In this document: piece by piece, positions 4,368-63,097 of the stretch
Position numbering within the stretch: the stretch's first letter is position 1
How the letters are laid out: each line of letters starts with the position of its first letter
From: Acidobacteriota bacterium
GTDB taxonomy: Bacteria; Acidobacteriota; Terriglobia; Bryobacterales; Bryobacteraceae
Assembly: GCA_016201205.1 (NCBI GenBank)
Contig: JACQDF010000219.1
Coordinates: forward strand, 1 to 64,000
Direction of reading: 5' to 3'
DNA: 64,000 nt
Notes under the pieces: model-generated
What the model was told of the DNA's origin: nothing
The model's input: only the letters and a program-made list of their open reading frames with translations
Database searches by the model: none
Made by a program: the position numbers and the translations under genes

Positions 4368-5276
4368 CTACGCCCCGGCCGCCTCCTGTTGCACCACCGG
4401 CAGCCATCCCCGGAACCATTCGCGGAATTCGCCGGCGATTTGCTCAGTGGCCGGGGCAAGCGGATTGGCGCGCCGGCCCATCTTCAAGCCGCGAACGCTG
4501 AGCGCCTCGCGAATGCCATAGGGGCCGGGGAACTGGTCGATGCGGCTCATGAACTCGTCCAGCCGCGCGCTCAGCCGGACGATGCGCGCGTCGTGACTGG
4601 CGCGAACCGCTTCTTCCAACGCAATCATCAGCTCGGGGACGGCGCAGGCGCATCCGGAGATGACGCCTGGCGCGCCGGCTGCCAGGCCGCGCACGAAGAG
4701 CGCGTCATTGCCCACCAGCACCGTGAAGTCGCGTTTGGCTCGCGCCTGCAACAATCGCCAGAGATAATTCCAGTCGCCGCTCGAGTCCTTGATTCCGGCG
4801 TAGCGGCCTTCAAGCAGCATCTCCTCAGCCACCTCAACCGGGATGGCGTTGTTGTAAGCCGGCAGGTTGTAGAGCAGCAGAGGAACGTCGTTGCCGATTC
4901 CTTCCGCGAATTCCACCAGGTACTCGCGTATCTCGGCGGCGCCATAGCGGAAATAGTAAGGGGGCTGCATCAGGATGCCGGCCGCGCCGTTGGCCCGGGC
5001 GTGGCCGGCGATCGTTTCCGCCTCTTCCAGGCAGGCGCAGGTGGCGTTGATGATCACCGGGACGCGGCTGCGCTTGATCGCCATCTGCGCCAGCCGGACG
5101 CGGTCCTCGACGCTGAAGTTCGGGAATTCGCCGGTGGCGCCGAAGAGCACGATTCCGCTGACGCGACGCCCGCACAGGAAATCGACCACTTCGAGAGCCG
5201 CGCCCATATCCATTTGATAGGCATCGGCGCGGGAGGGTGTGACTGCGGCGGCAAGAACACCTTGGAACGGGAGCAT
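4368..5276 (-). CDS. Dihydrodipicolinate synthase (DapA) family protein
   Basis: 302 aa; GVLAAAVTP, GIVLFGATGEFPNFSVEDR, LLLYNLPAYN, YAGIKDSSGD. Confidence 0.9.
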   Translation of the reverse strand: MLPFQGVLAAAVTPSRADAYQMDMGAALEVVDFLCGRRVSGIVLFGATGEFPNFSVEDRVRLAQMAIKRSRVPVIINATCACLEEAETIAGHARANGAAGILMQPPYYFRYGAAEIREYLVEFAEGIGNDVPLLLYNLPAYNNAIPVEVAEEMLLEGRYAGIKDSSGDWNYLWRLLQARAKRDFTVLVGNDALFVRGLAAGAPGVISGCACAVPELMIALEEAVRASHDARIVRLSARLDEFMSRIDQFPGPYGIREALSVRGLKMGRRANPLAPATEQIAGEFREWFRGWLPVVQQEAAGA

Positions 5277-5330
5277 GGACTGGATAGAATATTGTATCGC
5301 CTGTCGCGCAGCGCTCCGGGACGCGCTGGT

Positions 5331-5933
5331 TCAGGCCTGGGCTACATGCAGCAGATGCCCGCGCTTGCCCACGTTGACGCCAATGGTGGCGCCGATCTGC
5401 GCTTTGGCGCCTTCAGCCTCGTGGATGTGGCCGCAAAAGAAGTACACCGGCTGATGCTTGTCGAGGAATTCCTTGACCGCCGTGCTGCCGAAATGCAGCC
5501 CCTGGCCCGCGCAATCGAGCAACGTGCCCTTTGGGGGGCAGTGGCAGATGAGAATCAGCGGTTTCAGGGAAGCGAACGGCGCCAGCCGCTCGGCGAGCTC
5601 CTTCTCGCTGTACTCGCCCGGTGTGTTGAACGGCGTCGGGTTCGAATAGCCGAGAGCGGCGATCTGATATCCGCCGGCTGCCATCGACTTGCCATGGAAA
5701 TTCACAAAGCCGTGCCGCTCGCACATCCGGGCGATGTCGCGGTCTGACTCATGATTGCCCGGGATCACGTACATCTTCTCCTTGCGGCGCGCCAGGATTC
5801 CGCCCACGCGGTCGAAGCCCTTGGCCCAGCTCACCATGTCGCCGGCGGCGAAGTAGCAGTCGGCCTCGATCTCCATGAGGCGATCGAGCGCCTCCAGGTC
5901 GCTGTGAATATCGGAGAAGACGAGCAGGCGCAT
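5331..5933 (-). CDS. Metallophosphoesterase family protein
   Basis: 200 aa; FSDIHSD, GDMV, IPGNHES, GHIHE metal-binding motifs. Confidence 0.9.
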   Translation of the reverse strand: MRLLVFSDIHSDLEALDRLMEIEADCYFAAGDMVSWAKGFDRVGGILARRKEKMYVIPGNHESDRDIARMCERHGFVNFHGKSMAAGGYQIAALGYSNPTPFNTPGEYSEKELAERLAPFASLKPLILICHCPPKGTLLDCAGQGLHFGSTAVKEFLDKHQPVYFFCGHIHEAEGAKAQIGATIGVNVGKRGHLLHVAQA

Positions 5934-5935
5934 AT

Positions 5936-6589
5936 TTGATTCTATGCCGCTCCGCGGTCCACGGCGCCGGTGAGGATTGGGCGGAAAAGGTTTGTGCGGA
6001 GATTGCCCACCGCATCGGACTGCCGCACGCCAGATACGATCTTGCTCAGTGGCACTCGCCGGGCGGTCCGGTTTACGGCGTTCGCTCTTGGAGCTTCTGC
6101 ACAGATGGCGGGACTCTAATCCATGGAAACGAGCTGTTGGCGGAAGCCGATCTGGACTATTCGACCGGCGTTTCGAGGTTCCGGCAGTCTAAGCACACTG
6201 CTGACAGGGTAGTAGGTGCGCTCCAGCGTCACAAGCCAAAGGTTCCTCTGGATTGGTCGCCTCCCGTCTGGCTTGAACGGCTCAGTACTCGAGATCAGAA
6301 TTACGCCGTTGCTGCCTACGCAGCAAAAGCGCGGTCAGCGCTCTATCGCAGCGAAGGGGACGATAAGCCAATGGGGACATTGGATGCATTTCTGGAAGTG
6401 GCGCGGCGCAAACGAAGCACTGGGCTGCATTGGATCGCCACTCTCGAAGGGATTCCGGATTCCGAACTCGTTATACTGGTGGACAGAGTGCCGCCTACAC
6501 GGATTACGCCGACCTCAGCGGAATTTGCCAAGAAACTAATCCTGGCGAACAGGGCCAGGTTGAGCCAAGCCAAGGCGTCCTTGCTATGA
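5936..6589 (+). pseudogene. HipA-like kinase-family remnant lacking N-terminus and apparently the catalytic core
   Basis: Retains GEDWAEKVCAEIAHRIGLPHARYDLA, LIHGNELL, HTADRVV and C-terminal LERLSTRDQNYAVAAYAAKARSALY...FAKKLILANRARL; the segment normally holding the DRHHENW-type catalytic loop is absent between PLDWSPPVW and LERLSTRD. TTG start immediately abuts the divergent metallophosphoesterase gene. Confidence 0.55.
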
Positions 6590-22929: not shown

Positions 22930-23510
22930 CTCCTCCATCCCTTCGCCTCAAGACACTCCCGCAAACGAGCGCGGGCCCGATGCATGAGCACTCCCAGATT
23001 AGTGACTGAGATATCCAGAATCTTACAAATCTCCGCTGAGTCCAGCTCTTCCACTTCTCGCAGCGTGAAGACGGAGCGTTGTGCGTGTGGAAGCTCTCCC
23101 AGGCAGGCTTGAATCAGTTTACCGGCCTGGTGGGACTCGAGCAGCCGCTGAAGGTCCTCAGGTGGGCGCGCCCACCTGCCTTTAGAATCGAAACGCGATT
23201 CGAATACCTCGTCGATGGGATCATGCCGCTGGTCGACGTTCTGTTCCCTGCGGAACTCGAGGATCTTCCGATGCAAGATGCCGAACAGCCAGGTGCGGAG
23301 CTGTGACCGGCCTTCAAAACGATCCAGCGTCTCGAGAAACGTGGTGAAGACATCCTGGACCAAGTCCTCGGCCGCCGTGTCTGTCAGTCCCATACCGCGT
23401 GCAGCCCGGAACAACGTCCGCGCATGATCTTGGACCACCTGACTGAGCAGCGCCGGCTCGCGAGCTCGGAGCCGATCCAAGTCTTGATCAGTCAGTGCGT
23501 TGGCGGTCAT
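22926..23510 (-). CDS. ECF-type RNA polymerase sigma factor
   Basis: Internal ATG at 23510: MTANALTDQDLDRLRAREPALLSQVVQDHARTLFRAARGMGLTDTAAEDLVQDVFTTFLETLDRFEGRSQLRTWLFGILHRK..., SAEICKILDISVTNLGVLMHRARARLRECL. Confidence 0.92.
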   Translation of the reverse strand: MTANALTDQDLDRLRAREPALLSQVVQDHARTLFRAARGMGLTDTAAEDLVQDVFTTFLETLDRFEGRSQLRTWLFGILHRKILEFRREQNVDQRHDPIDEVFESRFDSKGRWARPPEDLQRLLESHQAGKLIQACLGELPHAQRSVFTLREVEELDSAEICKILDISVTNLGVLMHRARARLRECLEAKGWRR

Positions 23511-29165: not shown

Positions 29166-29903
29166 ATGGCGCAGATCTCAGATCTCCCGTTCAAGTACCG
29201 CGCGTTCGTGCGTGCCTATCCCTATCAGCGCGTCAACTGGCGGCCCGGCACGCAGCTCGCCAAGCCTCTTTCGGCCGCGCGCGTTGCGCTCGTGACGACC
29301 GCGGGTTTCTTTCTCCCCAGCCAGACACCATTCGACCAGTCGTTCCGGCACGACGATTGCTCGTTCCGCGAAATTCCATTCGAGACTCCGATCGAGACCT
29401 TGCGGATCGGCCAAAGCAGCGACGCCTTCGACCACTCCGGCATTGAAGCGGATCGGAACCTTGCGTTCCCGCTGGATCGTCTGCGGGAACTAGCCGGCGG
29501 CGGCAAGGTCGGAGAAGCCGCACCCCGCCACTACAGCATCATGGGATCGATCGTTGCACCCGCACGCCTGATCTCGGAGAACGGTCCCGAGATCGCACGT
29601 AAGCTCAAAGCGGACGCTGTCGATGCGGTGCTGCTCGTCCCAGTTTGACCCTTCTGCCACCAGGCAGCCGGGTTGCTGCAGAGCATTATTGAGAAAGCCG
29701 GCATTGCGACGGTATCGATTTCCCTCCTGCTGGAGGTCACCCGGCGCGTGGAGCCACCGCGGGTTCTATCAGTGGATCGCCCGTTGGGATATCCGTTGGG
29801 CGAAGCTCACAACCCTGAACTCCAGCGCACCATCATGCTCGCCGCGCTCGATCTGCTTCCCCGTCCGGTTTCCGATACGCTGATCGTCCCGTTTAACGGA
29901 TGA
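29166..29903 (+). CDS. Glycine/sarcosine/betaine (GrdB) / D-proline (PrdB) reductase selenoprotein-B-family protein; predicted selenoprotein with Sec at TGA 29646-29648
   Basis: Reading through TGA gives one 245-residue protein: ...AARVALVTTAGFFLPSQTPFDQSFRHDDCSFREIP...IARKLKADAVDAVLLVPV-U-PFCHQAAGLLQSIIEKAGIATVSISLLLEVTRRVEPPRVLSVDRPLGYPLGEAHNPELQRTIML...VPFNG. UxxC motif; both halves in the same frame; SECIS-like hairpin downstream. Confidence 0.85.
29646..29683 (+). promoter_or_regulatory. Candidate bacterial SECIS of the GrdB-like gene
   Basis: After UGA: CCCUUCUGCCACCAGGCAGCCGGGUUGCUGCAGAGC; GCAGC(+16..20)/GCUGC(+27..31) with loop CGGGUU (+21..26); alternative outer stem UUCUGC/GCAGAG. 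Confidence 0.6.
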
Positions 29904-32594: not shown

Positions 32595-33692
32595 CTATTT
32601 GGCGCCCTTCCGCAATGGAACCGGGGAACGCTGCCCGTCGTGATTGGCGTAACGGAACAACCACCGGATCGGAACGGTCTGGGGCGAGTAGCAGATTCGA
32701 TCGTCACAGGCCTGGTAATAGAAAGAATCTTCGATCTGCAACGTGCCATCAGGGGCAAGCAGCGGCCGGACCTCGCCGGCTTGCCCCACTGTCAAGTCGC
32801 GCGTGATCCGGAAGCGGCCCTCATAGACTGGAACCGTCTCCCCAATCGCAGGCAGGTGGAGCATCTTCGAGTTGGGGAGCGATACCTCATGAAGCAGCCA
32901 CCCTGTTGAGTTCTTGATCCGCCATTCGATCGGTTTGTAGCCTTTGACACCGGGCGCGTAGACGTGCATTCGGGCCTTCAACCCAAGTTCCATGACCAGG
33001 GTGACTCGATTGCCGGGCCGAACTGTTTCGTCGCTGGCATAATACCGAAGCTTCAGATGCGCGGTTTCCACCTCCGTGGATCGACCATCCAGGCCAATAC
33101 CAAGCTCCTTGACCAACACTCCGGACGTCGTAAAACGCTCGCGATGGTCCTCTTCGAAATACTTCGCAACGACGACTCCTCGCTCGTCGACCAGGTAGGT
33201 CCCTGGGAACGGGACACCGTACCACTCATGGTCCGGCGGGAAGTTGTCATTCAAGATGCCGAAGGCCCGAATCATTCTCGAATCCGAGTCACCGAGCAGC
33301 GGATAGTTGACGCCCTTTCGTGCCGCAAACTCCGCCAACAGCTCAGGCTTGTCGTAGGTGATGGCCGCAATGCCGATGCCTTTCGATGCAAGCTCCAACT
33401 TCTTCTTTCCCAGCTCCACGAGCTGGGTCTTGCAGAACGGTCACCAGTCCGCCGACCGCACGAACATCAACAAAGCGCCCTTCGGGCCGCGGATGGATTC
33501 AAGAGTCTGTTTCCGGCCATGCTGGTCGGTCACTTCGAACGAGGGGATCGGACTGCCGACCGCCGGTCCGGTCTTCAGGTTCTTGTCGAGTTCCGGGACG
33601 GGCCGCAGGCGAGGCCGCTCCGTGTCTTGTGCCGCGACGCCACCGGTCAGCCAAAACCCTGCAACCAGGATCACACTCCACGAACTCCGCAC
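32595..33692 (-). CDS. Peroxiredoxin/redoxin domain fused to a DsbD-alpha-like domain; predicted selenoprotein with Sec at TGA 33441-33443
   Basis: Two ORFs (33441-33692 and 32595-33419) are in the same frame and separated by one TGA: ...GALLMFVRSADW-U-PFCKTQLVELGKKKLELASKGIGIAAITYDKPELLAEFAARKGVNYPLLGDSDSRMIRAFGI...; C-terminal HLKLRYYASDETVRPGNRVTLVMELGLKARMHVYAPG...FYYQACDDRICYSPQTVPIRWLF. UxxC where the family has CxxC. Confidence 0.85.
33409..33443 (-). promoter_or_regulatory. Candidate bacterial SECIS of the peroxiredoxin-like gene
   Basis: After UGA: CCGUUCUGCAAGACCCAGCUCGUGGAGCUGGGAAAG; perfect CCCAGCUC/GAGCUGGG (8 bp) around GUG at +22..24 (or a 7-bp stem with CGUGG loop). Confidence 0.65.
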
Positions 33693-33931: not shown

Positions 33932-35596
33932 TCAAGCCGCGCAGCAGGAGAGCTTGGCGACGTCTTTCTTGAAGGTCAAGGCAGCCAGCTTCAGGCCTTC
34001 GACCATGGTCAGGTAGGGGTGGAAGGTTTCCGTAATGTCCTGGATGGTGAGCCCGAATCGAATCGCAAGGGTGGCCTCCTGAATCACGTCGCCGGCATCA
34101 GCAGCCAATACATGCGCTCCCAGAAGCCGTCCGGTATCTTCCTCCGCGATCAGCTTGATCAGACCGCGGGTGTCGCGGGCGGCCAGCGCACGTGGCACAT
34201 TATTGAGGTCGAGTACTGCGATTTTGACCCTGTGGCCTCGTTCGCGGGCCTGTTTCTCAGTCAGACGCACGCTGGCGATTTGCGGGTCTGTGAAAGTCAC
34301 TCGCGGCAAGGCAAACAGATCGTAAACACGTCCGGCGCCGTTGAGGGCATTTTCGGCCGCCAGCCCCCCAGCGTATGCGGCCACATAGACGAACATCGGA
34401 TCACCGATGCAGTCACCTGCTGCGTAAACGTCCGGGTTTGCACTCTGGAGATGCTCGTTTACTACAACCTCCCCCTTGGAGCCGGTTTCCACGCCCGCTG
34501 CTTCGAGACCAAGGCCAGCCGTATTCGGCCGGCGGCCCGTGGCGATCATCAGCTCGCTTGCCGCGCAGAGCTCCTCTTTTCCATCGAGCAACGCATGGAT
34601 CATGTACTTCCTGTCTTTGCGCTCGACCCTCTGGATGGTTGCGTTCGTACACACGCGCACTTTTTCGTCTTCGAGATATCGAGTGATCGCTGTTCCGATC
34701 TCTGGCTCTTCCGCGGCGGCTAGTTGTGGCTGGGATTCGAAAGCCATTACCCGAACGCCGAATCGGGCAAACAGTTGTGCAAACTCCAGGCCGATGGCGC
34801 CACCGCCGACGATCATCATTGAATCCGGCAACTCGGATAGGCTCAAGGCTTCCGTGCTGTCGAGATAACCCGTTTCCTCCAAGCCCGGAATGGGTGGCGC
34901 CCAGGGAAGTGAGCCGGTAGCGATCAGAATCTTTCCTGGTGAATAGGCGCTGCCATTGACGGCGAGACCGCGCCCTCCAGTGAGGACACCTTGGCCGTGA
35001 AGAATCGTGATGTTGGGGTATTGCCCGGCCACGTGAACGTACTTGTCTTCTCGCAACGCCTCGACCAGCTCATCTTTCTGCTGCACGACGCGCCGCCAGT
35101 CCGACGGCGGAGGACAGGCGGTCAAGCCTTCGAATTTCGGGTACGCGGAGTGATAGCAGAGCTCCGCGGCCTTGATCAAGGTCTTCGAGGGTACGCAGCC
35201 GATGTTGACGCAAGTGCCGCCGATCGTCCCCTTTTCGACGATCCCCACTTTCGCCCCAAGCTCGGCTGCTTTGATCGCGGCGGCAAATGCGGCGGATCCC
35301 CCTCCCAGAATCATCAAGTCGAATTGCTCTCCGCCGGACGGCGCCTGCCGTGTTCCTTCCAGCGAGCGCCGCTCGAGGACGACAGCGCGATAACCGGCTT
35401 GCTCGACCGCCTTCGTTATCGTCTCAGCAGCGACGTCGGAGCCTGCAACGACCACAGCCTGGCCGGATTTCCAGCTTCCCACCTCGGCCCGCTCCACGCC
35501 GGTCACTCCTTGCAAGGCTTTGGCGACATGACGGGCGCACCCATCGCACGTCATGCCCTCGATTCGCAGTTTGACATGAACCTTCGAATTCGCCAT
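33932..35596 (-). CDS. merA: Mercuric reductase MerA with N-terminal HMA domain
   Basis: HMA GMTCDGCARHV; GGTCVNIGCVPSKTLIKAAE active site; C-terminal KDVAKLSCCAA vicinal cysteines. Confidence 0.95.
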   Translation of the reverse strand: MANSKVHVKLRIEGMTCDGCARHVAKALQGVTGVERAEVGSWKSGQAVVVAGSDVAAETITKAVEQAGYRAVVLERRSLEGTRQAPSGGEQFDLMILGGGSAAFAAAIKAAELGAKVGIVEKGTIGGTCVNIGCVPSKTLIKAAELCYHSAYPKFEGLTACPPPSDWRRVVQQKDELVEALREDKYVHVAGQYPNITILHGQGVLTGGRGLAVNGSAYSPGKILIATGSLPWAPPIPGLEETGYLDSTEALSLSELPDSMMIVGGGAIGLEFAQLFARFGVRVMAFESQPQLAAAEEPEIGTAITRYLEDEKVRVCTNATIQRVERKDRKYMIHALLDGKEELCAASELMIATGRRPNTAGLGLEAAGVETGSKGEVVVNEHLQSANPDVYAAGDCIGDPMFVYVAAYAGGLAAENALNGAGRVYDLFALPRVTFTDPQIASVRLTEKQARERGHRVKIAVLDLNNVPRALAARDTRGLIKLIAEEDTGRLLGAHVLAADAGDVIQEATLAIRFGLTIQDITETFHPYLTMVEGLKLAALTFKKDVAKLSCCAA

Positions 35597-35612: not shown

Positions 35613-36506
35613 TCACTTCTGATCTCGCTTCAAAAACTCACCCACTGGCATCGCTTTGCGCCCCTGGAATTGAGGGTAGCGGGCCAGCCATTCTTTCAAG
35701 TGCTCTTTCGAACTGAAGAGATTGTTGATGCCTCAACCGCCGCCCTGAAAGACGATCGGCTCGGATGGATTGGCGCTCTTCAGGCGGCCCCGTTCGATTC
35801 TCAGCGATATACGCTGAGTGCAGTGGGCGCACGAGTCCTCGATCTTCAACGTGTCGGTGGAGTGTGTGCTGTTGACCAACAGCAGAAAATCCACCGCTCA
35901 AGCGACTTCGAACTTGTCGCGACCGTTCACCTCCACCTGGTGTGAGAAGAAATCAATACGATAGGTGGGGCGTCGCGAGTAGCGAGACGCCACCCTGTAG
36001 CCGCTCTCTTTTCCATCACTTTCGACTGCGATGGCGCCGAAGTCTTCGAGGAAGCGAAGCGGCTGCTGGAGTGAACGAGGCGAGATACCCACCTGCCGGC
36101 CGATGTCTTCCAGCTTCGCAACGCCCTGGTGTTGAATCTCGTGGAAGAGGATGGCCCGGGCGATCAACTTCTCCTCCGCAGTGAGCGCGATCGTCGTGAC
36201 GCCATGTCGTGCTGGCGCCGTGAACCCTGCGCGGTGGGCTTCCAAGAACCTTGCCAGCCGGAGTCGTGACCCGTCGGACAGCTTCGTATGTGTGACCTTG
36301 GCTGCCACACCGAGGCCGGTCGTCCGGTACTGCTTGGCCCAGTCCAGACGCAGGTATTCCAAAAGCGCTCTCTCGGAGGCCGTGAATTGAGACGTGTCGA
36401 TCGGGGGCTTTGTCGTCTGCTCCTGAGCCGCGAGTGAGACGGCCAGCAGGCCCAGAACGAGCCCCCGCCGGCCGCTACGAAGCACACGAATCGTTTGGTT
36501 CTTCAT
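35613..36506 (-). CDS. merB: MerB-like organomercurial (alkylmercury) lyase with leader peptide; predicted to contain two selenocysteines (TGA 35898-35900 and TGA 35733-35735)
   Basis: Read-through: MKNQTIRVLRSGRRGLVLGLLAVSLAAQ...LFHEIQHQGVAKLEDIGRQVGISPRSLQQPLRFLEDFGAIAVES...YRIDFFSHQVEVNGRDKFEVA-U-AVDFLLLVNSTHSTDTLKIEDSCAHCTQRISLRIERGRLKSANPSEPIVFQGGG-U-GINNLFSSKEHLKEWLARYPQFQGRKAMPVGEFLKRDQK-stop. UAVD matches C96-x-x-D99 and UGINNLFSS aligns without gaps to C159-CHVHFFAS of R831b MerB (recalled). True stop at 35613 is 16 nt before merA. GGAGG precedes the ATG at 36506. Confidence 0.85.
35703..35735 (-). promoter_or_regulatory. Candidate SECIS for the second UGA of merB
   Basis: After UGA: GGCAUCAACAAUCUCUUCAGUUCGAAAGAGCAC; CUCUU(+13..17)/AAGAG(+26..30), loop CAGUUCGA (+18..25). 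Confidence 0.55.
35855..35900 (-). promoter_or_regulatory. Candidate SECIS for the first UGA of merB
   Basis: After UGA: GCGGUGGAUUUUCUGCUGUUGGUCAACAGCACACACUCCACCG; lower stem CGGUGGA/UCCACCG, symmetric internal loop, apical stem GCUGUU/AACAGC, GGUC tetraloop at +21..24 (cf. GGUC in E. coli fdhF SECIS). Confidence 0.75.
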
Positions 36507-36542: not shown

Positions 36543-36827
36543 TCACTTGCCGGTCTTGCCTGGCTGGGCTTCGAACCCGGTCTTCTTGATGGCATCCGCA
36601 AGCTGCTTTTCCGTTACCTGGCTGTCTTCGTAGACCACGGTAGCGGTTCCTTTCTCCAGGCTCACGTCCGCATCTTTCACACCCTTGGTTGCGGTCAACG
36701 CCTTCTTCACCGTCGCGACGCACGATCCGCACGTCATTCCCTTGACCTTAATCTCGGCGGTGGCATCCTTGGCGACCGCAAGGCCGCACGCCAATGCCAT
36801 TCCGGCAATTACTGCGATGAGCTTCAT
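36543..36827 (-). CDS. merP: Periplasmic mercury-binding protein MerP-like (HMA)
   Basis: Signal peptide MKLIAVIAGMALACGLAVAKDA; IKVKGMTCGSCVATVKKALTATKGVKDADVSLEKGTATVVYED. Confidence 0.88.
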   Translation of the reverse strand: MKLIAVIAGMALACGLAVAKDATAEIKVKGMTCGSCVATVKKALTATKGVKDADVSLEKGTATVVYEDSQVTEKQLADAIKKTGFEAQPGKTGK

Positions 36828-36842: not shown

Positions 36843-37781
36843 CTAAGTCTTTCGGACGCGATATCCCGCCTCCTCAATGGCCTTTTCCATCTGTGCGGGT
36901 GTTGCTGAATGAGGGTCGTAGTCGATCTCGGCTTTCTTGTGCTCGAACGAAACCGCAGCCTTCCGAACGCCCGCCACTGCCTTCAATTTGTTCTCGACCG
37001 CGGTTGCGCAAGCCGCACAGTCCACACCCTCGACCACAAACGTCGCGTGCGCGACGGCGGATGCCTGGACCGTGCGTCCCGCAGCTCCGAGGGAACCGCC
37101 GGAAAGCAGAAAGTCCGCCACCGCGCCCGAGTAGTACGGAAAAGCGGCAAACAGAATGACTGCGGCCGTGACCAGCCACAGCGCCAGCCGGCCGGATCGC
37201 CGCGTGGACGGCATGGCACAGGCGGAGCCGGGCGCGCAGTCCGCCACTCTGGGCCGATAAGCGAAATAGAACCCCACCCCCAGCAGTCCAAACGTCAGAG
37301 CCAGCAGGTACGGTCTCCAGGCCGCAAACAACGCCGATGCGCCGAGAATAGAGAATCCCGTCAGCGCGAAAACGATGGGAAGAATGCAGCAGAAGCTGGC
37401 GACAATCGCGGCGGCAACGGAGCCCGCCATCAGCAGCGGGGCGCGCGTCGATTTCTGTCCGGCCCCCGCTGGCTGAGCCTCGCGGAGCGCCTGGCGAATC
37501 ATTTCGCCTGATGGCAAACCCTCTCTCCGGCCGCCCACTATGTACGTCCTGCACATCATTCCGTATTCCCGCGCTGAACGGGCGGCCGGTTCCACATCAA
37601 GGCCGTTGACGCGGATACTCGGCGACCCCATAAAGCCCAGCGCCTGAGCGGTCGCATCGTCGGGGACATTCACTTCGGAAACCTGGGCCGAGATGCCCTC
37701 TTCCTTCAGCACGTCCCGTACTCGTTCGACGGCTGGTTTGTGGTTGGGGCACCCGTCAAAATATAGAATTTCGATTTTCAT
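36843..37781 (-). CDS. Thioredoxin-like domain - MerT membrane domain - HMA domain tripartite fusion
   Basis: Internal ATG at 37781: MKIEILYFDGCPNHKPAVERVRDVLKEEG...GSPSIRVNGLDVEPAA; MerT-like GSVAAAIVASFCCILPIVFALTGFSILGASALFAAWRPYLLALTFG; C-terminal FVVEGVDCAACATAVENKLKAVAGVRKAAVSFEHKKAEIDYDP. Confidence 0.85.
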   Translation of the reverse strand: MKIEILYFDGCPNHKPAVERVRDVLKEEGISAQVSEVNVPDDATAQALGFMGSPSIRVNGLDVEPAARSAREYGMMCRTYIVGGRREGLPSGEMIRQALREAQPAGAGQKSTRAPLLMAGSVAAAIVASFCCILPIVFALTGFSILGASALFAAWRPYLLALTFGLLGVGFYFAYRPRVADCAPGSACAMPSTRRSGRLALWLVTAAVILFAAFPYYSGAVADFLLSGGSLGAAGRTVQASAVAHATFVVEGVDCAACATAVENKLKAVAGVRKAAVSFEHKKAEIDYDPHSATPAQMEKAIEEAGYRVRKT

Positions 37782-37794
37782 CGTATGAACTCTC

Positions 37795-38244
37795 CTAACC
37801 TCCCGTTGCCCGGCTGATCTCCTCAAGGACGGGGCAGCAGCCTTCATGGGACATGCCGCTTGTCTTCAAACCCCGGTCGCATTTGCGCAAAGCGACTCTT
37901 AAGCCGTGCTCCAGCGTCTGCAGCTCTTCGATCTTTTTCACCACGCGGGCCAACTTCTGCTCCAGCAGTTCCTTGACGTGGGAGCACGCAGGAACGTCTT
38001 CACCTCGCAGGATCAGCAGCTCCCGAATCTCATCCAGCGAAAAGCCCAGCTCCTGGCATTTGCGAATGAACCGTAAGGCTTGAATCTCGCGTGGGCCGAA
38101 CAGGCGAAAGCCCCCCTCGGTCCGCGCCGAGCGTCTCAACAACCCTTCTTTTTCGTAGAACCGTATCGTGTCGATGCTCAGGCCGGTCTCCCGGGCGACC
38201 TGACCGATCTTTACCGCCGCGCTCACCTGTCTTTTTGTTCCCAT
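37795..38244 (-). CDS. merR: MerR-family regulator (mercury responsive)
   Basis: VSAAVKIGQVARETGLSIDTIRFYEKEGLLRRSARTEGGFRLFGPREIQALRFI; Cys residues ACSHV / KCDRG / EGCCPV. Start could be ATG 38244 or GTG 38226. Confidence 0.9.
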   Translation of the reverse strand: MGTKRQVSAAVKIGQVARETGLSIDTIRFYEKEGLLRRSARTEGGFRLFGPREIQALRFIRKCQELGFSLDEIRELLILRGEDVPACSHVKELLEQKLARVVKKIEELQTLEHGLRVALRKCDRGLKTSGMSHEGCCPVLEEISRATGG

Positions 38245-39623: not shown

Positions 39624-40721
39624 ATGGTCCGGCTATTGGCTTGCACACTGTTCGTCACCGTTGCCTTGCAGGCGCAACTGTCGCCGGGCAAATGGAAGAC
39701 AGACCTCTCAAAGAAGTCGATCGACCTCGCGGAATTCCGAAGCGGCGGTCCGCCCAAAGATGGAATCCCCGCGATCGATGATCCGAAATTCGTAGCTGTT
39801 CATCAGGCCTCGGCCTGGCTGAATCCCAAGGAGCCGGTGCTCGCGGTCAATCTCAGCGGCGAGTCGCGTGCGTACCCGCTTCAGATTCTGATCTGGCACG
39901 AGCTGGTGAATGACCGAATTGGCGACATTCCAATTCTGGTGAGCTACTGCCCTCTCTGCAACAGTGCCATCGTCTTCGACCGCCGAATCGAGGGGGAAGT
40001 CCACGATTTTGGTGTTTCCGGCATGCTGCGCCACAGCGACATGGTCATGTACGACCGCCAGACCGACTCTCTGTGGCAACAGCTCACAGGCGAAGCGATC
40101 GTCGGAAGCATGACCGGCCGGAAGATCGAGATCCTTCCGAGCCAGGTTGTCGCGTTTGCAACGTTCGCAAAGAGCTCGCCGGCCGGCAAGGTCTTGAGCC
40201 GCGACACCGGCCATAATCGGGCCTACGGACAAAATCCGTATGCTGGATACGAGTTCGGGGACAGGCCGCTCTTTCCGGCACCCTCGCGGCGCCGGACTGG
40301 GCTGCGCCCCATGGAACGGCTTGTCACTGTCGAGGTCGGTAAGACAACCAAAGCATATCCATTCTCAGCTCTTCGCTCGCGTCGGGTTGTCGAGGACAAG
40401 ATCAGGGACACTCGTTACGTGGTTTTCTTTGAAGAGGGCACGGTGACGGCACTGGATCAGCGTGACATCGCCAGATCGCGGGACGTTGGGGCGGCCGGTG
40501 TTTTCACTTCCGAGCTCGAGGGGCGGCGCCTGAGCTTTCGCCACAAAGACGGCAAGATCGTTGACAAAGAGACCGGCAGTGTCTGGAACGTTCTTGGCGT
40601 GGCGACAGAGGGCACTCTCACCGGCAAGCGATTGACGCCGATCCCCCACGGCACCTACTTCGCCTTCGCCTGGCTGGCGTTCCGCCCGGACACGCAGATT
40701 GTGGGCGAGCGGGTCCCCTAG
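39624..40721 (+). CDS. DUF3179 domain protein (secreted)
   Basis: SRAYPLQILIWHELVNDRIGDIPILVSYCPLCNSAIVFDRRIEGEVHDFGVSGMLRHSDMVMYDRQTDSLWQQLTGEAIVG. Confidence 0.88.
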   Translation: MVRLLACTLFVTVALQAQLSPGKWKTDLSKKSIDLAEFRSGGPPKDGIPAIDDPKFVAVHQASAWLNPKEPVLAVNLSGESRAYPLQILIWHELVNDRIGDIPILVSYCPLCNSAIVFDRRIEGEVHDFGVSGMLRHSDMVMYDRQTDSLWQQLTGEAIVGSMTGRKIEILPSQVVAFATFAKSSPAGKVLSRDTGHNRAYGQNPYAGYEFGDRPLFPAPSRRRTGLRPMERLVTVEVGKTTKAYPFSALRSRRVVEDKIRDTRYVVFFEEGTVTALDQRDIARSRDVGAAGVFTSELEGRRLSFRHKDGKIVDKETGSVWNVLGVATEGTLTGKRLTPIPHGTYFAFAWLAFRPDTQIVGERVP

Positions 40722-59060: not shown

Positions 59061-60644
59061 TCACAGCTCGCCCGCCCGCCTCCGGGCGACGATGTACTCG
59101 CCGGCCCGCATCGACAACGCCAGAATGGTCAGCGTCGGATTCTGCACGCCGCCGGAGACGAAGCTGCCGCCATCCACCACAAACAGGTTCTTCACGTCGT
59201 GGCTCTGATTCCAGCGGTTCAGCACGCTGGTCTTCGGATTCGACCCCATGCGGCACGTGCCTAATTCGTGGATGCTCTCGCCCGGCGGCGCCATCTGCGC
59301 ATGTGTTGCGATCACCTGGAACCGCGCGTCCTGGCACAACTGCGCGGCCGTCTCCATCGAGTCCTTCGCCATTTTGTATTCGTTATCGGTGTATTTCTGG
59401 GTGATGTGCAGAGCCGGCATGCCCCATTCGTCCTTCAGATCAGGATGGATGCGCACCTGATGCTCGAAGCGCGGCAGCGACTCGCCCATCGTGGTCAGCG
59501 AAAAACCGGCGTCGGCGACATCTTCCAACTCCCGCAGCAGCTCGCCGCCATACAGCGGAAAATACTTCGCCGCCGGGGTGAACCCGCCTCCGAAATCGCA
59601 GGCGTATCCCCGCAGGAAGTTCTTCTCCTTGCTTTTCAGATTGCGGAACCGCGGAATGTACCCGCCGCCGCCCATCAGGCCGCGGCTGCCCTTGCCTCCG
59701 CGCGCTTCCGGCACCACCGCCACCACCACGTTCTTCACGTAGAATTGATCAAACAGGTAATGGCCCAGCACGCCGCTCGAATTGCCAAGCCCGTTCGGAT
59801 GCAGCCGCGATTTCGAATTCAGCAGAATCCGCGTGCTCTCCAGCGTCGACGCCCCCAGCACGACGATGCTCGCCCTGGCGTGATATTCGCGCCTGGACCG
59901 CCGGTCCACGAACAGCGCCCCATCCGCCAGGCCGGTTCCCGGATCGACGGTGATCTCACGCACCACCGCGTTCGGCGTCAGCGTCAGATTGCCGCTGTCG
60001 AGCGCCTGCGGCAGCAGCAGATTCGCTGAGCTGGCCAGCGTCCCCATGGCGCGCCTCGATTTCGTCGTCGGGATGCCTTTCCTGGTGCACGCGTCGATGA
60101 AGCGTTGCACGCTCTGAGGGTCACGTGAGTTGTCCGGGATGAGCTTGCCGTCGGGCAACTGTGGCAGACCTTCATTTCTGCCGGTCACATGGAACATCGG
60201 CTCGACACGGTCGTAATAGGGCGCCACATCGGCATAGGAAAGCGGCCAGTTGTCTCCGAATCCGTCGTGATCTCCGCACTTGAATTCGTAATCGCTCAGC
60301 CGCCACGAAGCGCGGCCCCAACGCAGCGTTCTGCCGCCCACCGCCCGGATGCGCACCCAGTAGTAGGGATCCTGCGGTTCGTAGGTGTATGGATTCTGCT
60401 TCTCGTCCGCCCACAGATTCGCATCGAATTCCGACGCCTGCGTGATGTGCGGAAATCTGCCCGGCCGCCCGAAACCGCGGTATGGCAGATCGCACACAGC
60501 TTTCATGACGCGTTGCTTGTCGTAGTCCATCAGCGGGCCCGCATCCAGCATCAGACACCTGGCGCCCGCGCGCGCCAGCACCCACGCCGCCATGCCGCCG
60601 GCCGCGCCCGATCCGATGATCAGCACATCGTAGTTCGCCGCCAT
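59061..60644 (-). CDS. GMC family oxidoreductase
   Basis: [33 protein letters not shown]-terminal [60 protein letters not shown]. Confidence 0.92.
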
Positions 60645-60654
60645 GGTCGCATCC

Positions 60655-61233
60655 TCAATCGAGCGGCAGCCAATAGGCGCCCAGACCCGCTGCCGAGCGG
60701 CGCCGGCCGGAAACCGCCTCTCGATACTGGCGCGAATTCACGGTCGCCTGCATCAAGTCTTCTTTCGCCTCGCGCAGAAACCGGGCCAGTGCATCCTGGG
60801 GAGGATGATATGTCCACGCCTCGGTGACGGGTTTCAGCACCGGCTTCGCCTCCGCCGGTGAAACTTGAGCGAACGGTCTGCCGTAGCGCTTGCGGGCATC
60901 GGCGTTCAGCCGGTCGAGTCCTTCGCGATAGAGCGCCTGCCGCTCCGGGGCGGACACGCCGATCAGGAAGTCCAGGAATCCGGCGGCTTCGGCTTCGGCA
61001 GCGCCTGGCCGGTCCCCGAATTTGGGAACAATCAGCTCAGCGAGTTTCTCGAACGCCGCCCACTGCTCCGCCGTGAAGAAACGCCGCACGACGCCGGCCA
61101 CTGCATCCGGCGCTGTCTCGGCCAGCTTTGGAGTCTCGGCTTCCGCAGGCTGCGCCGGGCTGCTCGTGGATTGCGCCGCCGCCGGCATCGCCGGCGCGGC
61201 AAGAATGGTCTGCAATAACCTCCGTCTTCGCAT
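60655..61233 (-). CDS. Gluconate 2-dehydrogenase subunit 3 family protein
   Basis: [41 protein letters not shown]; adjacent to the GMC oxidoreductase. Confidence 0.85.
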
Positions 61234-61240
61234 AACTCCT

Positions 61241-63097
61241 TCACAATATCACCCGGAAATCGCCTTCTCTCCGGGTCACTCGCTCGCGATCGAAGTATTC
61301 GAGCAGCGGGATCGCGTACTTGCGCGAGATCCCCGCCCAGTCCTTGAACTCCGGCACGCTGAACCGCGACCCTTTCCTGCCCGTCAGCATAGCCCGCAAA
61401 CCATCCAGGGCAGAAGGATGAAACAGCAGATCCTCGGCCACTTTGATCAGCCGCTTGTCACGCAGCAGAATCTGAAGCAGCGAGCGCGCCCTTACGCTGT
61501 CTACGCCGCAGGACTTCAGCACCTCCTGGGCCGCGGGCACAGCCAGTCCCGCCTGCTCGAAGGCCGATTCGATCTTCCTGAGCGCGGCCTCCTCATCCGT
61601 TTTCAGCGCCACCGTGTGCGACGCCAGGCGAATGGATTCGCCGCTCGCCACAACGCCCTCGACCCTCTTCAGCAGCGCGTCCAGCAGGAACGCGGGCGCT
61701 CCCGCCAGCTCACGGCTGCGCAGATCCTCCTTCATCATCCCTGGCGCCAGCGGGTTCAGCTTGTGAAACGCCGCCAGCGCCGCCTTGATCCGTTCCTGGG
61801 CGTTCGCGAACCAGTCGCGGTCCAGGGCCCACTGCTGTTCTTCGAGGAAGACGGCCGCCTCGCGCATCGCCCGGGCGGCCTCGGGAGGCATCCATCCGGT
61901 GCGCGCGACGAGGTCGTTCAGAGCAAGGCCATGTCTGGCCTCGCGCACCATCAGCTTAACGCGCTCGGAGGCGCTTGCTGACTCCAGCACACGCAACCGC
62001 TCATTCGAGGCTTTCGTGCGGCGCGGCGGCGCTGAATCCAGAACCACGCCGCCCGCAATCGTCACCACCGGGGAGAACATGCGCAGGATGAAGCGGTCGC
62101 CCGGCAGCAGCAACGCCGGCTCGCGCAGGATCAGGCGCACATAGCAGCGCGTCCCTGGCTCGATCGTCGTGCCCGCGATCAGCCGCACTTCCGCTTCGAT
62201 CCCGGCGGCGCCCGAGTGAAAATGCACCGGTGCGCGATTCTTGAGCGGCCTGGCGGACGCCAGCAGATCGAGGGCGCAGTCGGCCAGCGTCGTTGTGCGG
62301 AACCGCCCGGGCTCAGCGAGCGCCATCCCCCGGGCGAGTCCGCTGTGCTCAATGCCGCCCAGATTCAGCGCGGTGCGCTGGCCGGCCACCGCCTTGTCGA
62401 CCGGCTTTCCATGCACCTGCACCCCGCGGATGCGGACGCGCCTGCCGAGCGGGTAGACCTCCACTTCCTGATCCACTCGTACGCTTCCGGAAAGCAGCGT
62501 TCCGGTGACCACCGCGCCGAAGCCTTTCATCGAGAAGGCGCGGTCCACCGGCAGCCGGAAGTGCCGGGTGGCGTCGCGCAAGGGAACCTGGGTGGCGATC
62601 CGCGCGATTTCCTTTCTGAGTTCCTCGAGGCCTTGGCCGGTTACCGAGCTCACCGCCACCACCGGCGCGCCCTCCAGAAAGGAGCCGGCGACGAACTCCT
62701 CCGTCTCGAGCTTCACCAGCTCGACCAGATCCGGCTCGACCAGATCGGCCTTCGTCACCACCACGATCCCGAGCGAAATCCCCAGCAGGCGGCAGATGTC
62801 GAAATGCTCCCTTGTTTGCGGCTTGATGGATTCATCGGCCGCGATCACCAGCAGCGCCAGGTCGATTCCGCCTACGCCCGCCAGCATGTTCTTGACGAAC
62901 CGCTCGTGTCCCGGCACATCCACGAACCCGCACTGGATCTCGGGCGTCAACTGCAAGTGCGCGAATCCGAGGTCGATGGAAATGCCACGCCGCTTTTCTT
63001 CTTCGAGCCGGTCGGTGTCGATGCCGGTGAGCGCGCGCACCAGCGCTGTCTTGCCGTGATCGATGTGGCCGGCTGTGCCGAGGATGATGTGTCGCAT
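61241..63097 (-). CDS. selB: Selenocysteine-specific elongation factor SelB
   Basis: MRHIILGTAGHIDHGKTALVRALTGIDTDRLEEEKRRGISIDLGFAHL; VDVPGHERFVKNMLAG; C-terminal winged-helix repeats ending LIKVAEDLLFHPSALDGLRAML...ISRKYAIPLLEYFDRERVTRREGDFRVIL. Confidence 0.96.
   Translation of the reverse strand: MRHIILGTAGHIDHGKTALVRALTGIDTDRLEEEKRRGISIDLGFAHLQLTPEIQCGFVDVPGHERFVKNMLAGVGGIDLALLVIAADESIKPQTREHFDICRLLGISLGIVVVTKADLVEPDLVELVKLETEEFVAGSFLEGAPVVAVSSVTGQGLEELRKEIARIATQVPLRDATRHFRLPVDRAFSMKGFGAVVTGTLLSGSVRVDQEVEVYPLGRRVRIRGVQVHGKPVDKAVAGQRTALNLGGIEHSGLARGMALAEPGRFRTTTLADCALDLLASARPLKNRAPVHFHSGAAGIEAEVRLIAGTTIEPGTRCYVRLILREPALLLPGDRFILRMFSPVVTIAGGVVLDSAPPRRTKASNERLRVLESASASERVKLMVREARHGLALNDLVARTGWMPPEAARAMREAAVFLEEQQWALDRDWFANAQERIKAALAAFHKLNPLAPGMMKEDLRSRELAGAPAFLLDALLKRVEGVVASGESIRLASHTVALKTDEEAALRKIESAFEQAGLAVPAAQEVLKSCGVDSVRARSLLQILLRDKRLIKVAEDLLFHPSALDGLRAMLTGRKGSRFSVPEFKDWAGISRKYAIPLLEYFDRERVTRREGDFRVIL

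Follow-up and report, generated by a model that had tools for sequence, protein, structure and literature searches.

An intact selB gene and its likely client genes, among them a MerB-like gene with two in-frame UGAs, in an Acidobacteriota genome

A gene for SelB, the selenocysteine-specific elongation factor, raises the questions of whether the genome that carries it can decode UGA as selenocysteine (Sec), the 21st amino acid, and which genes make use of this. The gene considered here is found in a 64-kb stretch of DNA (the window) from an Acidobacteriota MAG (7.0 Mb in 392 contigs, 94.3% complete). It is of interest mainly through genes of the same stretch that appear to need SelB, including one for a relative of a mercury-detoxification enzyme. 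The gene is very probably a SelB of functional type that inserts Sec at UGAs, and its likely clients are selD, a redoxin family, a PrdB-like protein and a MerB-like protein with two Sec positions. SelB would bring Sec-tRNA(Sec) to the ribosome, where its C-terminal winged helices would read a hairpin just past selected UGAs so that Sec is incorporated instead of termination taking place.

The selB gene and its surroundings

The selB gene, its parts and its two conserved neighbours are as follows (coordinates are those of the window).

61241-63097, minus strand: selB, selenocysteine-specific elongation factor, 618 aa (profile matches, PDB alignment)
62597-63094, minus strand: SelB GTPase domain, residues 2-167, G motifs intact (Pfam, motif check)
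61250-61783, minus strand: SelB C-terminal winged-helix region, residues 439-616, SelB-wing_2 and SelB-wing_3 (Pfam)
60655-61233, minus strand: Gluconate_2-dh3-type small subunit adjoining selB, a neighbour retained in congeners (Pfam, locus comparison)
59061-60644, minus strand: GMC oxidoreductase, a selB neighbour retained in at least six congeners (Pfam, locus comparison)

The frame runs from an ATG start to a TGA stop with no interruption. Its product matches the NCBIfam profile for selB, TIGR00475, with 391.8 bits (cut-off 242.25), and Pfam cut-offs are exceeded by GTP_EFTU, GTP_EFTU_D2, the SelB beta-barrel and the two winged-helix domains SelB-wing_2 and SelB-wing_3 (PF09106 and PF09107). 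The G motifs are intact, with GTAGHIDHGKT at residue 7, DVPGH at 60, TKAD at 115 and SSVTG at 150. Residues 5-614 align with E. coli SelB (PDB 5lzb, 5lzc and 5lzd; E = 7e-82 for 5lzb, a ribosome complex). The two proteins have the same EF-Tu-like domains and C-terminal winged helices and differ only in sequence divergence, domains being neither gained nor lost. The first-pass annotation had described a full-length elongation factor with MRHIILGTAGHIDHGKTALVRALTGIDTDRL and a SelB-type C-terminal winged-helix region, and the Pfam, TIGR00475 and E. coli SelB comparisons all bear this out. In known SelB proteins the C-terminal winged-helix region binds the SECIS. The last helix of that region is here ISRKYAIPLLEYFDRERVTRR, near-identical in almost all aligned relatives. 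As a gene, 61241-63097 is an ordinary, intact bacterial selB.

SelB is widely distributed, with 55 of the 61 genomes searched encoding one. The congener proteins are 63-74% identical to that of the window, show no notable difference from it, and in most congeners have the same two genes beside them. This conservation, together with the kept neighbours, is what would be expected of a known translation factor that is inherited vertically. Neither the Gluconate_2-dh3 gene nor the GMC oxidoreductase gene has an evident selenium connection. Since selB has a conserved neighbourhood of its own, its proximity to the candidate client genes (about 25 kb) is no evidence of a functional unit.

A genome-wide profile search found one SelB above the cut-off in the whole MAG. 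A second candidate, on contig C213 (123 bits), proved to be an EF-Tu cut by the contig end. The single copy bears on the idea that the window SelB has taken on a different role, such as decoding another codon or serving a tRNA other than tRNA-Sec. Second SelB copies linked to non-Sec tRNAs have been described (PMC7609411), and it is this precedent that gives the idea some ground. Against it stand the lack of a second copy here, a tRNA-Sec with anticodon UCA, the conserved client UGAs presented below, and a C-terminal winged helix of canonical form; such a change of role is thus most improbable.

Other genes of the selenocysteine pathway

No tRNA-Sec, selD or selA had been recognised in the window, and it was expected that these would lie elsewhere in the genome if the pathway is complete. 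A tRNA search of the 64 kb confirmed that tRNA-Sec is absent from the window. The expectation holds for two of the three genes. The tRNA-Sec gene (selC) is on contig C184 at 673-767, with the UCA anticodon, an 8-bp acceptor stem, a long variable arm and an encoded CCA. The selD gene, on C253 at 5198-6121, scores 366.2 bits (cut-off 125), and a single UGA interrupts its frame, at the codon for the catalytic residue (AAGUASKLSP). A Sec-containing SelD is itself a sign of Sec decoding. The third gene, selA, is absent from the assembly: the genome-wide profile search of the 94.3%-complete MAG gave no hit above the cut-off, and a candidate on C121 (37 bits) is a different protein of the PLP-enzyme kind.

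The missing selA allows a second reading, in which the gene is truly lost, SelB, selC and selD are remnants of an incomplete pathway, and the UGAs are stops or mark decaying genes. The profile search is what speaks for it. However, selA is found in 57 of the 61 genomes searched, all ten congeners included. In the eight congeners examined it comes after an S9 peptidase, which heads the operon, and a PIG-L deacetylase. The S9 peptidase is 68-96% identical among congeners, and no ortholog was found in the MAG (best match 34%). Genes that flank selA in two congeners likewise lack orthologs there, and the best matches, that of the S9 peptidase included, are 28-45% identical. This is the pattern expected of a missing block, and because the conserved operon neighbour and flanking genes are gone along with selA, an assembly gap is likelier than loss of the pathway. 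The selC contig has nothing in common with the congener selA loci. Intact SelB, tRNA-Sec and selD genes are also difficult to reconcile with decay, as is the fact that the UGAs are the sole in-frame stops in otherwise well-conserved genes; true loss of selA is accordingly very unlikely. The first pass had named the absence of selA, selC and selD from a complete genome as the finding that would tell against Sec decoding. With selC and selD present, and selA missing here together with its neighbour, that is not the situation in this organism.

Candidate selenoprotein genes and their hairpins

At four positions of the window (29646, 33443, 35900 and 35735) an in-frame UGA has the appearance of a genuine Sec codon, and relatives nearly always retain it. 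The four codons belong to three genes, each with a SECIS-like hairpin or a corresponding stretch downstream.

29166-29903, plus strand: PrdB/GRDB-like selenoprotein candidate, in-frame UGA 29646-29648, motif UPFCHQ (relatives, profiles)
29658-29687, plus strand: sequence following the PrdB-like UGA, where relatives have a clear SECIS-like hairpin and the window a weak one
32595-33674, minus strand: AhpC/TSA redoxin plus DsbD_N selenoprotein candidate, in-frame UGA 33441-33443, motif ADWUPFC (relatives)
33402-33431, minus strand: SECIS-like hairpin of 8 bp with loop GUG, following the redoxin UGA
35613-36506, minus strand: MerB-like protein with an in-frame UGA at each of the two catalytic Cys positions (35898-35900, 35733-35735) and the Asp retained (Pfam, PDB match, Foldseek, relatives)
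35859-35888, minus strand: SECIS-like hairpin after the first MerB UGA, 7 bp, loop GGUC
35694-35723, minus strand: SECIS-like hairpin following the second MerB UGA, weaker, with about 5 bp here against 7 bp in relatives

In the PrdB-like gene the UGA is present in 11 of 11 matches, across the ten genomes that have it. The redoxin has matches in 57 of 101 genomes with UGA in nearly all; for these two families the position of the UGA was verified in about ten loci each. PrdB-type and redoxin selenoproteins are of known kinds, as are SelB, tRNA-Sec and SelD (PMC1794560; PMC13188914). A second redoxin paralogue with an in-frame UGA occurs outside the window in the same genome (C319, 24457-25416).

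For each client a possible stem begins about 16 nt after the UGA and carries G and U in its apical loop. Across relatives the stems are, on average, more stable than synonymous-codon shuffles (mean z of -2.0 and -1.6 for the first and second MerB sites, -1.6 for redoxin and -2.0 for PrdB), in a comparison that uses few sequences (8-10) and is inflated by their relatedness. Compensatory pair changes are seen at both MerB sites and at the redoxin site (C-G to U-A, U-A to A-U and C-G, A-U to G-C). Two of the hairpins are weak in the window copy, namely those that follow the PrdB-like UGA and the second UGA of the MerB-like gene. When all TGAs of the window were scanned as single sequences, a correctly placed hairpin with a GU loop was found at 5% of them for a stem of 5 bp and at 1% for a stem of 7 bp; such a scan is weak alone, so the case rests on conservation. 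Between 29500 and 36000 Rfam gave no match, even with E values up to 5 allowed, and the hairpins are thus judged solely by position, loop and conservation. The window SelB presumably binds these hairpins.

The view that this SelB supports Sec decoding is now backed by tRNA-Sec, by a selD of the Sec type and, in the window itself, by UGAs that are conserved and followed by hairpins, and the operation of Sec decoding in this genome is well supported. SelB in turn makes the four suspicious UGAs credible Sec codons rather than possible frameshifts or pseudogenes. Gene calling with the standard code truncates such genes at the UGA, and they stay hidden.

One other UGA, at 23304, was set aside: it follows a weak upstream coding signal, and the DUF302 gene downstream of it is free-standing. 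A motif screen for U beside Cys motifs returned 174 matches, almost all noise. A DUF3179 protein (39666-40721, plus strand), of a family with known Sec members (PMC13188914), has an uninterrupted frame here and adjoins a PpoB2-type copper chaperone.

The MerB-like protein in the mer operon

The MerB-like gene sits in a mer operon, between the genes for an HMA protein and MerA.

33932-35596, minus strand: MerA, mercury(II) reductase (TIGR02053, 567.7 bits, cut-off 454)
36543-36827, minus strand: HMA metal-binding protein, ending with UGA 36543-36545 (profile)
36843-37712, minus strand: MerT with HMA domain (MerTP-like), thioredoxin-like N-terminal part (profiles)
37795-38226, minus strand: MerR-family regulator (profile)

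With both UGAs read through, the MerB-like protein scores 33.4 against Pfam MerB (PF03243; gathering cut-off 27), and all nine members of the alignment (the window protein and eight relatives) match this family at E <= 0.01. The sequence also matches MerB2 in the PDB (E = 2e-6). Two Cys and an Asp are the catalytic residues of MerB, and the Cys/Asp/Cys positions of MerB2 correspond to U203, D206 and U258. The predicted structure (mean pLDDT 81) has MerB proteins as its best eleven Foldseek matches. Since the TM-scores, normalised by target length, are a modest 0.45 or so, the assignment rests on the Foldseek list and the sequence together. The protein thus shares the catalytic positions and the Asp with the organomercurial lyases MerB and MerB2 (PF03243; PDB 5c17, 3f0o), but differs from them in having UGA/Sec in place of both catalytic Cys, a longer N-terminal part and a signal-like N-terminal segment. 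The last of these suggests export.

The two UGAs are retained wherever both positions could be read. A first search of 396 genomes of the phylum gave four homologues, all with both UGAs. A scan of 84,980 species gave nine loci, eight of which reach both positions, and all eight have both UGAs (four of the eight come from genomes that had already given the four homologues). These loci are spread over four phyla: Acidobacteriota, Bacteroidota, a Caldithrix relative and Neomarinimicrobiota. Of the two patterns used in the scan, one demanded Cys at the first of these positions and the second covered neither of them, so Cys versions could have been found; none turned up in this non-exhaustive scan.

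One MerB-like family, SaoL, is listed in a 2026 review of prokaryotic selenoproteins, with a single Sec in a CU motif (PMC13188914). SaoL (NF040728) resembles the window protein in being a MerB-like family with Sec, but it has one Sec position rather than two, and the window protein, read through the first UGA only, misses the SaoL cut-off (27.2 against 140 bits). Literature on selenocysteine and organomercurial or alkylmercury lyase yielded no double-Sec MerB, with a mention in the original SaoL work possible. The double-Sec MerB-like family is apparently undescribed, and it is this family rather than SelB that is the novel part. It is likely that SelB here decodes such a family, probably exported, in which both catalytic Cys are Sec and which would act as a lyase on organomercurials or other organometals through a Sec/Asp/Sec triad. 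This raises the question of whether, in nature, both of the positions from which a MerB-type carbon-mercury lyase attacks the metal can carry selenolates in place of thiolates.

The surroundings of the gene elsewhere are different. In all three other genomes checked, the double-UGA gene follows a thioredoxin-like gene and is not in a mer operon, so the substrate may not be organomercury. The thioredoxin-like neighbour is possibly the reductant of the MerB-like protein. These genes, redoxin-type and 5' of the MerB-like gene, are at 1589-2134 (L108), 4417-5007 (L109) and 4368-4883 (L115).

Two further features of the mer operon touch on selenium. The UGA at 36543-36545 that ends the HMA gene was considered as a Sec codon; read-through would enter the ribosome-binding site of the next gene, and it is probably a plain stop. 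The thioredoxin-like N-terminal part of the MerT-HMA fusion (36843-37784, minus strand) exceeds the cut-off of the NCBIfam 'DF family (seleno)protein' and has Cys here.
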